A stretch of 25,643 nucleotides of DNA, from positions 1 through 25,643 of IMG/VR virus record IMGVR_UViG_3300026321_000236; one strand, given 5' to 3'. Positions within the stretch are counted from its first letter, which is position 1, and each line of letters opens with the position of its first letter. Shown in pieces: positions 3,598 through 11,200 of this stretch. This DNA comes from a virus. Under the pieces are notes generated by a model, which made no database searches, was not told where the DNA came from, and worked only from the letters and a program-made list of their open reading frames with translations. Both the position numbers and the translations under genes were made by a program.

Positions 3598-5207
3598 TGG
3601 CTGACCCACAAGCAATTGCTAAGAGATTACGAGATAGTAAACAACAGTCAGCAACAGAGGCTGAAGTTCTTAATGAACAGTTGGCTCTTAAGGATGTTAT
3701 TATTGATGAGTATGATGAGTTAATTAATAAATTAGATGTTAAGATACCTCCTCTTATTGAACCTATTAATGTTAAGATAAAGGCAGTAGAGACTGCCTAT
3801 CATAATAGGATTTCTCATGGATGTAGAAGTGACCTTGTATGGCAACTTCAGGAATCAAATAATAATTGGTATAATCGAGATGTTCAAATTTATAAGGTAG
3901 TAAAAGATCCTGCCACATTTAGGTTCTTGGGATATTATGGTGCAAAATATTGGAAGTATCCTAAGAATAGGGAGTATGGTTCCAATGTAGTAGAGATTAT
4001 TGATAATGCAGATGCTATTGTGGGTAGTACATCTCTTATTCTAATGGATGAAGATGCTGGAGATATGACTGGACTCTCCACCACAACTGCTACACCCACT
4101 ATTAAAGTCGGAGATTTTATCACAGACTCATTAGATTTTGCAGTAATATATCAATCTGGTTCTTCGACAGCAGTTACAGGTGTGGGAACTACGAGTTATG
4201 ATGCTAAGACTTATGCTGTATCTGGATTCTGTACATCAGGTGATAATAAAGTTTATGGTGATCAGAAAGTAGGATTCCTTACAGAGTTTACTATCGGTGA
4301 CTCATTCTATGGAACTTCTGACAAGTATGGAGCTGGAGTCATACCTAACAATACTACAATTACTGGATTTGGTACTGCTGTAGGTATTGTGAGTTATACA
4401 ACTTCTAATGGTATTCAAAGTGCCATGAGTGTTGTTCTAGACTATGCAACTTTAAGTAATCCAGTTAGTGCAAGTATTGCTTCGACTATTGGTACATCAT
4501 TCTATGTTGGTGTTGTATCAACTTATTATAAGTTAGATTTGAGTGCAGCGGCTAGTGCAACAGGACTTAGCAGTTCATTCCTTGTCGTAAGACCAGGCGA
4601 TACATCAAATATAGATTTTGAATCTTCTAAGAACCCAATAGATCCAGTAGAGATAGCTTGTGCGAAGGGTGCTCAGATAGGTAAAGGACATAAATTGGTT
4701 CTTATTAATAATGGTGATCCTGATATTGTTGCTAACTGGAGTGAGATTAAACAGGAACCAGAACCTGCTGTTGGTAATGGTAGAGTGGAATATTGGATAG
4801 GAACTACTAATTGGCCTGTGTATTATCCATATAATGCAGAAGGCAGTTCAGTAGATCCAATATATGCTGCAGAAGGACATCAGATTATTATTTCTGTTGG
4901 TGGAACTGCTAATACTACTATGGATTATGAGAATACTCCTCCTGGCGGTGCCATTCCAGGCGATTGTGGAGCTTATGATTCCGCAATTGCAACGGCAGAA
5001 GAGGAAATGAATAATACTATTGCTGCCGCAGTACCAAAAATCAATCACTATATAAGTGGTGCAGACAGTTTACGACAATTGAGAAATGAGGATGAGACTG
5101 AGGCTTGGGGATATTTACAAGCAATAGGATACCTTAACGCCAAAAGTAAGAGACAGTTAGCACAGGCTGAGGATATAGAAGACTTTAACTGGGAAGAAAT
5201 TACGTAA
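3597..5207 (+). CDS. Virion structural protein with N-terminal coiled coil
   Basis: A 536-residue protein. Residues 1-75 are helical and coiled-coil-like (LNEQLALKDVIIDEYDELIN). Next comes an aromatic segment (YYGAKYWKYPKNREYGSNVV), then a long Ser/Thr/Gly/Val-rich beta region (about residues 145-420). A Glu/Gln-rich C-terminal helix ends the protein (AQAEDIEDFNWEEIT). Composition and position suggest a tail or neck-associated structural protein of the cyanomyovirus type. No enzymatic motif is visible. The start is well supported by the strong upstream AGGAGG. The stop overlaps the following ATG in TAATG, so the first dioxygenase-like gene is read on the same late transcript as the structural genes. 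Confidence 0.7.
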   Translation: MADPQAIAKRLRDSKQQSATEAEVLNEQLALKDVIIDEYDELINKLDVKIPPLIEPINVKIKAVETAYHNRISHGCRSDLVWQLQESNNNWYNRDVQIYKVVKDPATFRFLGYYGAKYWKYPKNREYGSNVVEIIDNADAIVGSTSLILMDEDAGDMTGLSTTTATPTIKVGDFITDSLDFAVIYQSGSSTAVTGVGTTSYDAKTYAVSGFCTSGDNKVYGDQKVGFLTEFTIGDSFYGTSDKYGAGVIPNNTTITGFGTAVGIVSYTTSNGIQSAMSVVLDYATLSNPVSASIASTIGTSFYVGVVSTYYKLDLSAAASATGLSSSFLVVRPGDTSNIDFESSKNPIDPVEIACAKGAQIGKGHKLVLINNGDPDIVANWSEIKQEPEPAVGNGRVEYWIGTTNWPVYYPYNAEGSSVDPIYAAEGHQIIISVGGTANTTMDYENTPPGGAIPGDCGAYDSAIATAEEEMNNTIAAAVPKINHYISGADSLRQLRNEDETEAWGYLQAIGYLNAKSKRQLAQAEDIEDFNWEEIT

Positions 5208-5725
5208 TGAAGAAAGAAATCTTTGCTATTCCTGTCTTTGAAGACAAGGTTGATCTTGACAAAATTAATATACCAGAGATGGTAACCGAACCCACATGGG
5301 ATGCTGGTGTTCCATCTACTTTTGCTAAGAAAATGGTTCTCGACAATGGAACCATTGAACATTTATCTAGTATAATTAATCAAAATTTATATGATGGAAA
5401 TCTTTTGGGTGCAAACCCCAAATTCGGGCATATATGGTATAATAGATATGATAAGCATCACTATCAAGATGCACATATTCATCCAAATTGTCAATGGAGT
5501 TTCATCATTTATATTGATCTCCGTCCCAAGACTTCTTTTTTAAACCCATCAATGGGTTTGATTCAGAATCAAATGGGTAATAATTTAGAGGCTTTTCCTT
5601 TAGATTATAAACCCGACCTAGAGCCAGGAAGTATTATTATATTTCCATCGTTCTTAATGCATATGGTTAACTCAGGCAATGAGGGTACTACCGTTTCTGG
5701 TAACATTTACATGGATTACTGTTAG
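5207..5725 (+). CDS. HxH-type 2OG-Fe(II) oxygenase-fold protein, paralog A
   Basis: A 172-residue double-stranded beta-helix protein resembling the TIGR02466-like family. Visible metal ligands are H90 and H92 in QDAHIHPNCQWSFIIY and a distal H152 in IIIFPSFLMHMV. In active relatives an Arg about ten residues after the distal His binds the 2-oxoglutarate carboxylate; here that position reads GTTVSGN, with no Arg. The co-substrate could therefore differ, or activity could be lost. It is clearly paralogous to the gene at 6095 (WSFIIY, FLNP, IIIFPSF and GTT[VI]xGN shared). It starts in a TAATG overlap with the structural gene, so late expression is likely. The substrate is unknown. Confidence 0.72.
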   Translation: MKKEIFAIPVFEDKVDLDKINIPEMVTEPTWDAGVPSTFAKKMVLDNGTIEHLSSIINQNLYDGNLLGANPKFGHIWYNRYDKHHYQDAHIHPNCQWSFIIYIDLRPKTSFLNPSMGLIQNQMGNNLEAFPLDYKPDLEPGSIIIFPSFLMHMVNSGNEGTTVSGNIYMDYC

Positions 5726-6023: not shown

Positions 6024-6105
6024 TCAAATTTGGGAATGGGATGAGACACCAGAGGTTCTTGCTGCATTAGAGAAATTGCATAGTCACAAGACAGATGAGA
6101 AATGA
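5977..6105 (+). CDS. Possible 42-residue basic protein
   Basis: An ATG ORF of 42 residues (begins MPKRTHTIKKKNDK, contains IWEWDETPEVLAALEKLH). It overlaps the coiled-coil gene by 47 bases and the next dioxygenase-fold gene by 11. The basic N-terminus followed by an amphipathic helix looks protein-like, and the arrangement fits the overlapping style of the region. There is no clear ribosome-binding site of its own, so coupling from the upstream gene would be needed. The function is unknown and it could be a chance ORF. Confidence 0.4.
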   Translation: MPKRTHTIKKKNDKHSQIWEWDETPEVLAALEKLHSHKTDEK

Positions 6106-6616
6106 TTTCTTTTCTGTTCCATTTTTCACTGATAAGGTAGATTTAGAAAAGATCACAGTTATAGATGAGAGTCAACAACCCACCTTTAGGGCAGGGTTGA
6201 TGACCAGTCTCAGAACTAATAAACAAGTCAGTAATGAGACTATAGAACACTTGTCTGAAGTTATCAGTAGAAATATTGATACTCTTGGTGTTAAGTATGG
6301 TTCTGCTAAGATAGATGAGATTTGGAGGAATACTTATACTAATCAGGATTTCCAAGATCCTCATATCCATTGCTATTCACAGTGGAGTTTTATCATTTAT
6401 GAGGATGTGGATGTATCCAGAACAGTATTCCTCAATCCATATAGGTTTAGAGTCGAATCGCAGATGGCGATGTATGATGAGTATTTCATGATGGACTATA
6501 GACCAGAACTACATAAAGGTGATATAATAATATTTCCATCGTTCGTAGAACATTATGTTCTCAGCGGTGGTACGGGGACTACCATTGCTGGTAACGTATT
6601 CCTTTCACCAACATAA
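6095..6616 (+). CDS. HxH-type 2OG-Fe(II) oxygenase-fold protein, paralog B
   Basis: A 173-residue paralog of the protein at 5207, collinear over its length. Ligands visible are H90 and H92 (FQDPHIHCYSQWSFIIY) and distal H153 (IIIFPSFVEHYV). As in paralog A, the expected 2OG-binding Arg is absent (GTTIAGN, residues 161-167). Both copies kept the same substitution while the rest diverged, so the loss probably predates the duplication and may be functional rather than decay. The tRNA-Asp gene starts one base after the stop codon, so the mRNA and the tRNA cluster probably share a transcript. The substrate is unknown. Confidence 0.72.
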   Translation: MRNDFFSVPFFTDKVDLEKITVIDESQQPTFRAGLMTSLRTNKQVSNETIEHLSEVISRNIDTLGVKYGSAKIDEIWRNTYTNQDFQDPHIHCYSQWSFIIYEDVDVSRTVFLNPYRFRVESQMAMYDEYFMMDYRPELHKGDIIIFPSFVEHYVLSGGTGTTIAGNVFLSPT

Positions 6617-6850: not shown

Positions 6851-6918
6851 TCCTCTTTTGAGGATAGGTGATGTCACCTACATTCTGGACAGGGGTTCGA
6901 TTCCCCTCATCTCCACCA
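6851..6918 (+). ncRNA. ssrA: Circularly permuted tmRNA, acceptor piece (3' part of mature RNA)
   Basis: This piece carries the 3' end of a tmRNA although it lies upstream of the 5' end. GGAC (6887-6890) directly precedes a T arm AGGGG-TTCGATT-CCCCT (6891-6907), as in E. coli tmRNA. The acceptor strand CATCTCC (6908-6914), discriminator A6915 and encoded CCA (6916-6918) follow. CATCTCC pairs over all 7 bases with GGGGATG at 6997-7003 (one G-U). The 5' portion has two hairpins, TCCTC/GAGGA (6851-6864) and AGGTGA/TCACCT (6866-6879). A tentative P2 helix pairs GTCA (6873-6876) and TTC (6883-6885) with TGAC (7032-7035) and GAA (7027-7029) of the coding piece. The 5' end is set by the 3' end of tRNA-Thr and is approximate. 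Two-piece tmRNAs from permuted genes are known in alphaproteobacteria and marine cyanobacteria. Confidence 0.88.
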
Positions 6919-6919
6919 A

Positions 6920-6992
6920 TGCTCCTTAGCTCAGTTGGTAGAGCGGTTGACTGTTAATCAATTTGTCGCTGGTTCGAGCCCAGCAGGAGCAG
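6920..6992 (+). tRNA. tRNA-Asn (GTT), lying between the two tmRNA pieces
   Basis: The acceptor stem is TGCTCCT with AGGAGCA (6985-6991), the discriminator is G6992, the D stem is GCTC/GAGC, the anticodon stem is GTTGA/TCAAT with loop CTGTTAA giving GTT, and the T arm is GCTGG-TTCGAGC-CCAGC. CCA is not encoded. It begins 2 bases after the tmRNA CCA end (6918) and ends 4 bases before the tmRNA 5' end (6997), so it fills the intervening segment of the permuted tmRNA gene. Confidence 0.93.
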
Positions 6993-6996
6993 TCAC

Positions 6997-7227
6997 GGGG
7001 ATGCCATGGTTTCGACAGGGTACAAGGAACATGACTGAAAACCTGCTCGGAGAGCAAACCACAGATGCTAATAACATCGACACTGCTGCGAATAACATCG
7101 TAGCGTTCTCTCGTCTTATGACAAGAGAATTTGCCCGCACTAACGAAGAACTCGTTACTGCCTAAGGGGCAATCGGGGTTTAGGTCGTCCTTGTTACCCA
7201 ATCGACACATAGGGGTGAGATGCCCCT
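6997..7227 (+). ncRNA. ssrA: Circularly permuted tmRNA, coding piece (5' part, tag reading frame)
   Basis: It begins with GGGGATG (acceptor 5' strand) followed by CCATGGTTTCGACAGGG, the conserved tmRNA start with its TTCGAC D-loop. A hairpin TGCTC-GGA-GAGCA (7044-7056) sits where pseudoknot 1 is expected. The tag frame runs from GCG at 7088 to TAA at 7163-7165. It starts ANNIVAFSR, as cyanobacterial tags do, but is 25 residues long and ends ELVTA instead of a typical VAA/LAA. A 10-bp hairpin with one mismatch (7106-7115 with 7120-7129) lies in the tag frame. A second hairpin (GCCC/GGGC with inner TAACGA/TCGTTA, 7133-7170) contains the stop codon. The 3' end is uncertain; I placed it after the AGGGG/CCCCT hairpin at 7211-7227. 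Confidence 0.88.
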
Positions 7228-8206: not shown

Positions 8207-11200
8207 ATGCCTCTATCAAGATTAGAAAACTTTCTGAAGAATGCTGAGGGTAACATACTCTATGTGAACCCTAGCGACTTCGATGCTACTGACAGTATCG
8301 AGAACAGAGGTAATTCACAAACCCGTCCCTTTAAAACTATACAGAGGGCACTGATAGAGGCTGCAAGGTTCTCATATCAGACAGGACAGAATAATGATAA
8401 GATAGACAGAACAACTATACTTGCATATCCAGGCGTACACTATATTGATAACAGGCCAGGATTTACTGTTACAAACAATGGTGGTAGTGCTCAGTTTAAA
8501 CAGAGAAAGAACGCAGGATGGCAGAATACTTCATTAACACAGTTTACTACTGAAAGTAACTTTGATATATTAGATCCTAATAACGAACTCTACAAGTATA
8601 ATAGTACCGAGGGTGGTGCCATTATGCCTCGTGGTACTTCTATTATTGGTTTTGACCTTCGTAAGACTAAACTAAGACCATTATATGTACCAGATCCTAC
8701 TGATGATAACATGGAGTACGCTGGTGTACTTCGTGTAACTGGTACTTGTTACTTTACTGCCTTTACTATCTTTGATGCAGATATACAGAAGACTGCATAC
8801 TATGACTATGATAGTAATACTAAGACACCTACATTCTCACACCATAAACTAGCGACATTCTCATTCGCTGATGGTATGAATAATGTGCTGATTGATGGTA
8901 CAGACAGCACATTGACTGACCTTGACATGTATTACTTCAAGGTTGCAAAGGCCTATGGAGATTCATCTGGACGCCCAGTTGGTGATTATCCTACCTTTAG
9001 TGACTTTGAACCTAACGTAGACGAATTTAGAATTGTTGGAGACTTACAATCAGACCCAGTTGGTGTTACATCTATTAAGGCTGGTGATGGTAATACTCCT
9101 ACTGCAACTATTACTGTTAATACAAGTAAGGCACACGGATTATTCAAGGATACTCCTGTTCTAATTGCTGGTATTACTACTGCAATTAGTTCTTACAATG
9201 GTTCTTTCCTTGTAGATGAAGTCTTAAATGATAATCAATTTACATTCCAGACTTCTAATGTACCTGGCAATGCACTACCTACTGCACAAGAAATTCAGAA
9301 CTCATCTGTTATAGTTGAGTCTGATACTGTAGGATCTGCATCTCCATACGTCTTTAACTGCTCACTCCGTTCTGTTTACGGTATGAATGGTTTAGATTGT
9401 GATGGTGACAAGGCAACTGGTTTCAAATCTATGGTTTGTGCCCAGTTCACTGGTATCTCAATCCAGAAGGATGATAATGCTTTCGTATTATATAATCCTT
9501 CGACTGCAATCTTTAACGATACTACTACTGTATCTGAGTCGGACAAACCATTACACTCTAACTCAAGGGCAATCTATAAGCCATCATATGAGACATCTCA
9601 CATGAGAGTTAGGAACAACGCTGTTGTTCAGTTGGTGTCTGTTTTCGCTATTGCATATGCTCGTCACTTCCATGCAGAGAGAGGTGGTGACGCATCTATT
9701 ACTAACTCTAACAGTAACTTCGGACAGACTGGTCTTGAGGCATCAGGATTCAGACCAGAATCATTTGATAGAGACGACACTGGTTATATTACTCATATTA
9801 TTCCACCAAGAGAGATTACAAGAGAAGACTCTACAGTTTCTTGGTTGACTATTGATACTAGAAAGACTATTGGTATTGGTGTTACTGATAGATTCTACCT
9901 ATTTGGATATAATAGTGAAGAGATCATACCTCCAGCAGAGATCGATTCATTCAGAATTGGTGCTAGAAAGGATGAACAACTTCATTTAAGTTTGGTTAAT
10001 ACTCTTTCTGGTCAGGCAGTTCAGGAGACATATACATCTCCAATCTTGATGCAGGTTCCTAGTGGTATTGGAACTTCATCTCTTAAGGAGTATGAGGTTA
10101 TTAGAAACTCTGGTGTTAATGCCATTATTTCTAACGTAATCCAGTTTAAGACTAATCACCAGTTAGTTAATGGTGAGAAAGTTCGAGTATTCAGTAATAC
10201 TGGTGAAACTCCTGCTGGTATTGTTAATGATAAGATATACTTTGCTATTGCTGGTGGTACACTTGCTGCAGATAGAATTCAGTTGGCATCTACCTTTAAT
10301 GATGCTGCTTCACGTAGACCTATCACTGGTATCTCAAATGGTGGTGGTAAGTTAAGTGTTAGATCTACTGTATCTGATAAGAATCCTGGCGATCCAGGCC
10401 ATCCAATGCAGTTTGACGAAGGTACTTATACTATTAATAGTGTACCTAATACTATTGGTGGTTGGTATCTATCAGGTCACCCAAGTACAACGTTCAACAC
10501 TATATTCCCTGCCCTTAATACTATAGGTGTAGGTGTTATTGGCGAAGAGACTGGTACTACATTCATCAAACGTCGTGTAGATAACAGATCTCTACTTGAT
10601 AGAGTTTACAGAGCAAGATATGTTATACCTAAAGAACATACAAATGCTCGTGCTCCTAAGCCTGGTTATATCTTACAGGAATCTAAGACTGTTGGTGTAA
10701 GTAGTGCATCATTCTTGAGTGCTGACCTAAGTAACCCAACTCAACTTAAGAACGTCAAGATCATTAAGACGGCATCTTATAGTGCTCAGACTCTTACATT
10801 TACTACAGAAGAAGCACACAGATTACAGAAGGATGATATCGTAACTATCAGGAATATTGATAGTGCCAATAATAGTACAGGTATATTCAAGTTAGGATAC
10901 AACGGTGTTCATCCAGTATCTAATGTTATATCAACTAAGAAGTTTGCTGTTGCTGGTATTTCTACTGATCCAGGCGTATTCCTCAATCAGGTCAACCAGA
11001 GAACTACACAACAACAGGTAGAGGCACTACCTACTGTTCAGAGATCTAAGGCAAGTGATAGTTTCGCAGTTTATAGGGTTCAAGAGAACAAACCTCATGT
11101 TCCTGGCACTGCTGGACAAGATGGTGTTTATAATATAATTCTAACTTGTGCATCAATTCCACTGGATAAAGACCTTGGATTTGGTGTCTCCATGAAGACA

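Follow-up and report, generated by a model that had tools for sequence, protein, structure and literature searches.

The 25.6-kb virus record analysed here over its whole length (the window), which among named phages stands closest to the T4-like cyanophages S-SSM7 and S-SSM6a, carries a cyanobacterial-type circularly permuted, or two-piece, tmRNA gene. We consider it fairly probable, on the basis of sequence comparison, that this gene yields a working phage tmRNA which is processed by the host, acts with host SmpB, adds a tag of 32 residues and probably delivers the tagged proteins less well to ClpXP. ARAGORN, which classed the gene as tmRNA* (permuted), found it among genes for tRNA-Asp, tRNA-Tyr, tRNA-Thr and tRNA-Asn. 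The tmRNA matched the Rfam families cyano_tmRNA (RF01851) with 118.2 bits (cut-off 70, E 9e-32) and tmRNA_permuted (RF04321) with 95 bits (cut-off 47), and because of these scores the match cannot be attributed to chance. Chance or an assembly artefact could also be ruled out as the source of the arrangement, as the independent contig L047 has an identical tag and nested tRNA. The initial annotation had correctly read a tmRNA tag frame ending with ELVTA and a stop at 7165, but had missed the permuted layout, the acceptor piece and the nested tRNA-Asn. Two 2OG-Fe(II) oxygenase-like genes (5207–5725 and 6095–6616) lie directly upstream of the tRNA/tmRNA cluster, and a 2313-aa open reading frame at 8207–15148 matches the S-SSM7 tail fiber region and a peptidase S74 protein of Sf-FS3.

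All parts of the gene lie on the plus strand. The acceptor (3′) piece, which is transcribed first, occupies 6851–6918, as delimited by the RF01851 and RF04321 alignments, the ARAGORN tmRNA* prediction and the sequence itself; it comprises a 5′ hairpin (6851–6864), a T-arm (about 6890–6907), the 3′ strand of the acceptor stem (6908–6914), the discriminator A (6915) and an encoded CCA (6916–6918). One base separates it from a complete tRNA-Asn(GTT) predicted by ARAGORN at 6920–6992, which is followed by a 4-nt spacer (6993–6996). The coding (5′) piece extends from the 5′ strand of the acceptor stem, GGGGATG (6997–7003), to a 3′ terminal hairpin at 7226, where the RF01851 match ends. According to the RF01851 alignment, it includes a PK1-region hairpin, TGCTC/GAGCA (7044–7056), which ends 10 nt 5′ of the resume codon, and, beyond the tag, a downstream structured region with the terminal hairpin GGGGTGAGATGCCCC (7173–7226). 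The marks of a permuted tmRNA are present, namely an acceptor piece upstream of the coding piece together with matches to the covariance models, a 7-bp acceptor stem with G3–U70, a resume Ala codon with A at −4 and 10–12 nt past PK1, and an open tag frame with its stop inside the H5 hairpin. The short gene-free intervening segment that is usual in such genes, though not strictly defining, is replaced by a segment holding the complete tRNA-Asn.

The tRNA-like domain appears to be maintained. The acceptor stem of the window, GGGGATG/CATCTCC, is paired at 7/7 positions and keeps the G3–U70 pair of alanine identity. The same holds for all eight distinct acceptor-stem types found in relatives, in which position 5 is occupied by five different pairs. 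Furthermore, a D-loop-like motif, TTCGAC, TTAGAC or TTTGAC (7011–7016 in the window), covaries with the T-loop, TTCGA or TTCAA (about 6895–6903), over 116 phage genes (90/5 versus 4/17), which suggests a tertiary contact.

Our comparisons drew on 125 phage genes (105 of type A and 20 of type B), mostly metagenomic and including many near-copies, and on 55 host genes, the host set being limited to the recognised marine picocyanobacterial loci. All 55 host tags are 16 residues long and end in Ala-Ala. The 45 complete distinct phage tags, on which the counts of endings are based, range from 14 to 32 residues, and an Ala-Ala (VAA) ending is found in 10 of them. The commonest alternatives are ATA (12/45) and VTA (8/45), the others being ALV, VAV, ALA, SLV, VSV, VPA, VVA, AVA and ATV. 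The claim of the initial annotation that the phage tag is longer than that of the host and departs from the VAA/LAA ending is thus borne out. On a gene tree built without the variable tail, about 11 switches between AA and non-AA endings were counted, at least seven of them forced by well-supported branches; this count is rough, the gene being short and cyanophages recombining. Loss of the Ala-Ala ending is, by this comparison of sequences, recurrent in this group of phage tmRNAs. Comparison with related phages, on which the initial annotation had staked its reading, gave a divided answer: the close relatives L016, L027, L090 and L119 end in ELVAA, one transition from ELVTA, but do so in the same long frame, while other relatives have short, VAA-ending tags.

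An ssrA-type ClpXP degron has a C-terminal Ala-Ala-COO−, and the window tag ends in Val-Thr-Ala. In E. coli, substitution of either of the two terminal Ala residues increases the KM of ClpXP but hardly alters Vmax, the penultimate residues tested being G, I, F, D and K, not T (PMC7652416). Since penultimate changes act on KM in this way, it is plausible, by analogy, that recognition of the ELVTA tag by ClpXP is attenuated rather than abolished, and the suggestion of the initial annotation that Thr at this position may weaken recognition is a reasonable one. Cyanobacterial ClpX may differ from its E. coli counterpart, and recognition of the phage tags by proteases may partly persist, given that their endings stay small or aliphatic.

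Selection on the ending may instead simply have been relaxed. If the phage needs only the release of ribosomes, the C-terminus would drift without purpose, and degradation would perhaps be reduced as a by-product. The diversity of the endings and their repeated changes speak for this explanation, as does the single transition that separates Thr from Ala between close relatives, and we regard it as a serious possibility, if short of an even chance. Free drift, however, would not be expected to leave TA both common and clustered, nor to confine the last two positions to A, V, T, L, S and P; D, E and G never occur there, although each is one base away from GCN. We consider it unlikely, but by no means negligible, that the altered tail still works as a usual degron, with -VTA and -ATA being handled as well as -VAA by the ClpXP of cyanobacteria or by some other protease. 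Phage endings do remain small and hydrophobic, and the E. coli effect on KM and not Vmax is compatible with such handling (PMC7652416), but the presence of AA in 55/55 host tags suggests that this ending matters in the host. Weakened delivery to ClpXP, with ribosome rescue retained, remains the reading that we prefer.

The length of the tag depends on where translation resumes. The initial annotation placed the start at GCG 7088 and described a tag of 25 residues (7088–7165); the count is right if read from 7088, but the start was not confirmed. Translation is strongly supported, from comparison of sequences, to resume at GCT 7067 (7067–7069), because the base at −4, A7063, is invariant there and never found at −4 of GCG 7088. 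In E. coli the equivalent base, A86, is nearly invariant and activity is abolished without it, and about 12 nt separate PK1 from the resume codon (PMC2481249). At the counterpart of GCT 7067 an A stands at −4 in every phage gene, of type A (105/105) and type B (20/20) alike, and likewise at −4 of the resume codon in 55/55 host genes. Resumption at GCG 7088, with the upstream hairpin as a mere non-coding spacer, has in its favour the homology of the codons from 7088 onwards with the start of the host tag, ANNIV; it is nevertheless very improbable, for the −4 base there is C or T in 65/65 genes counted, the codon would sit 31 nt past the PK1-region hairpin rather than 10–12 (10 nt for GCT 7067), and the two candidate codons are separated in type-A genes by exactly 21 nt, without indel or stop, even though 23 sequence variants of this extension occur among 65 listed genes. 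The tag frame, predicted by ARAGORN and by the comparative resume-codon test, would therefore run from GCT 7067 to the stop TAA at 7163–7165 and encode the 32 residues ANNIDTAANNIVAFSRLMTREFARTNEELVTA, which begin ANNIDTA-ANNIVAFSR, end ELVTA and are preceded by one more Ala, that charged on the tmRNA.

The template of the tag itself folds into hairpins. The extra segment of eight codons forms a hairpin at 7106–7129, which the initial annotation had given as 10 bp; the hairpin stands, with 9/10 standard pairs in the window, where C7112 and A7123 are mismatched (C–G at that pair in S-SSM7). The second hairpin that it had described as bearing the stop was likewise found, at 7131–7172: this H5-like structure has an outer stem (7131–7136/7167–7172) and an inner one (about 7141–7146/7152–7157) and holds the stop codon in its 3′ internal loop. 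The local fold of 7105–7172 has a z of −5.7, none of 200 shuffles being equally stable. In an alignment of 15 distinct relatives, the proposed helices are paired in 94% of their cells. Covariation, scored at 0.186, exceeds the 0.069 ± 0.012 of shuffled alignments (0/500 as high) and the values of at most 0.062 obtained when the helices are slid, in support of the earlier view that the extra residues are encoded across hairpins. In the outer stem of the stop-codon hairpin, 3/6 pairs show double changes and 100% of cells are paired. Two more hairpins were absent from the initial annotation. One, GCTGCG/CGTAGC (7085–7104), covers the host-like ANNI codons and reads GCT/TAGC in 64 phage genes and GCA/TTGC in 36, always matched. 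The other, GATG/CATC (7064–7078), surrounds the resume codon with 4 bp (5–6 bp in most relatives), and GAUG/CAUC is replaced by UCUG/CAGA in some relatives; it was assessed outside the main alignment, in which its columns are offset by one base from one subgroup to another. A similar pairing has been proposed to be inhibitory in the E. coli A86C mutant (PMC2481249), whereas in the phage genes pairing round the resume codon is the conserved state. The hairpins of the tag template are, as judged from their covariation across relatives, real. It is hardly credible, then, that the RNA is a decoy titrating SmpB or a decaying copy instead of a working tmRNA: there is a published phage tmRNA reduced to the tRNA-like domain (DS6A), and tmRNA is inhibited by a molecule that resembles it (PMC4131195), but here the tag frame, its stop, the −4 A, the acceptor stem and the hairpins are all preserved, with compensatory change.

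Both pieces can be read in 116 phage genes, and in these the intervening segment measures either 4–11 nt (93 genes) or 79–89 nt (23 genes), and each of the 23 long segments consists of a complete tRNA plus a few flanking bases. The nested gene is tRNA-Asn in eight cases, with two unrelated sequences, and tRNA-Tyr in 15. Five of these cases are the window itself or contigs fetched by patterns aimed at the feature; the other 18 come from an unselected first scan, about ten of them being near-identical. The tRNA-Asn of the window occupies this site in six contigs in all; the same arrangement is seen in L047, L058, L091 and L245–L247. The junction of acceptor piece, tRNA and coding piece seen in the window is covered by no phage in the annotated collection. 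The nested tRNA represents a variant arrangement of the gene and not a loss of its function. Excision of the tRNA-Asn would, by analogy with known tRNA processing, also free both pieces of the tmRNA.

Searches for SmpB (PF01668) gave no match in the complete genomes of S-SSM7, Sf-FS3 and S-CAM1 or in the window, a fragment, although control genomes were positive; the ClpP family likewise had no match in the three relatives. A complete phage-borne trans-translation system would include an SmpB of its own, which was found neither in these three relatives nor in the window fragment. Since the three complete relatives lack matches to SmpB and ClpP, the tmRNA probably relies on the SmpB and the proteases of the host. 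We therefore picture a working two-piece tmRNA that would derive from that of marine picocyanobacteria. Host tRNA-processing enzymes would cut the transcript of the tRNA cluster into tRNA-Asn and the two tmRNA pieces, which would pair to form a tRNA-like domain, be charged with Ala through G3–U70, bind host SmpB and enter stalled ribosomes. Translation would then resume at GCT 7067 and append the tag, and with the Ala-Ala ending lost, rescue would go on, with the tagged proteins probably reaching host ClpXP less readily but not being shut off from it. It is tempting to go further, albeit only tentatively, as we hold the following to be rather improbable: cyanophage tmRNAs may repeatedly have abandoned the Ala-Ala degron so that ribosomes are recycled while tagged proteins, including viral ones, escape host ClpXP, and some may have linked tmRNA maturation to a nested unrelated tRNA whose excision splits the tmRNA.

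With the cyanobacterial two-piece tmRNA (RF01851/RF04321) the window gene shares the layout, the tRNA-like domain, G3–U70, the −4 A, the resume Ala codon, the NNIVxFSR motif and the stop-codon hairpin. It differs in having a tag of 32 instead of 16 residues with a 7-residue N-terminal extension, an extra 8-codon hairpin, a VTA instead of a VAA ending and a nested tRNA-Asn. Homologous genes occur in S-SSM7, whose tag is nearly identical (AKSSDTAANNIVAFSRILTREFARTDELVTA), Sf-FS3 and S-CAM1, but with a 5-nt intervening segment and no nested tRNA. Two-piece tmRNAs in marine phages are already known. The accessible part of the report on the lytic Methylophilales phage Melnitz describes a permuted tmRNA together with tRNA genes, as here, but of alphaproteobacterial type and with a glutamine riboswitch, and contains no analysis of tag endings or nested tRNAs (PMC9004378). 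In the most recent paper on the tmRNA database, a tRNA-Ala lying in the intervening sequence of one permuted gene is termed unique (PMC11915505). That gene, from the archaeal-labelled MAG GCA-2688965 sp002688965.2, likewise encloses an intact tRNA gene, but it is a single non-phage case, whereas tRNA-Asn or tRNA-Tyr is nested in 23 phage contigs. In the searchable open literature we found no description of the N-terminal tag extension, of recurrent Ala-Ala loss or of recurrent tRNAs inside phage tmRNA genes. Variants of the gene were also seen among the contigs: in L111, imperfect AATACTC repeats fill the region 5′ of the coding piece in place of a nearby acceptor piece, while the phage tmRNA of L008 and L103, with the tag ANNIVAFSRTSAPSLV, apparently has no downstream structured region of the usual kind and ends at a terminator-like hairpin.

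The tmRNA is not annotated as such in the deposited records of S-SSM7, Sf-FS3 and S-CAM1 (for the latter two, in the regions seen); in S-SSM7 (NC_015287.1, 21009–21227) a hypothetical protein, SSSM7_025, is annotated over it. At least three deposited cyanophage genomes thus carry an unannotated tmRNA of this kind. The nested tRNAs indicate that the two pieces of a tmRNA can accommodate an unrelated RNA gene in between. In the usual description, tmRNA couples the rescue of ribosomes to the destruction of the product. Phage tags that repeatedly drop the invariant ending of their hosts make it possible to examine, in a natural setting, whether viruses uncouple rescue from destruction in the course of infection.
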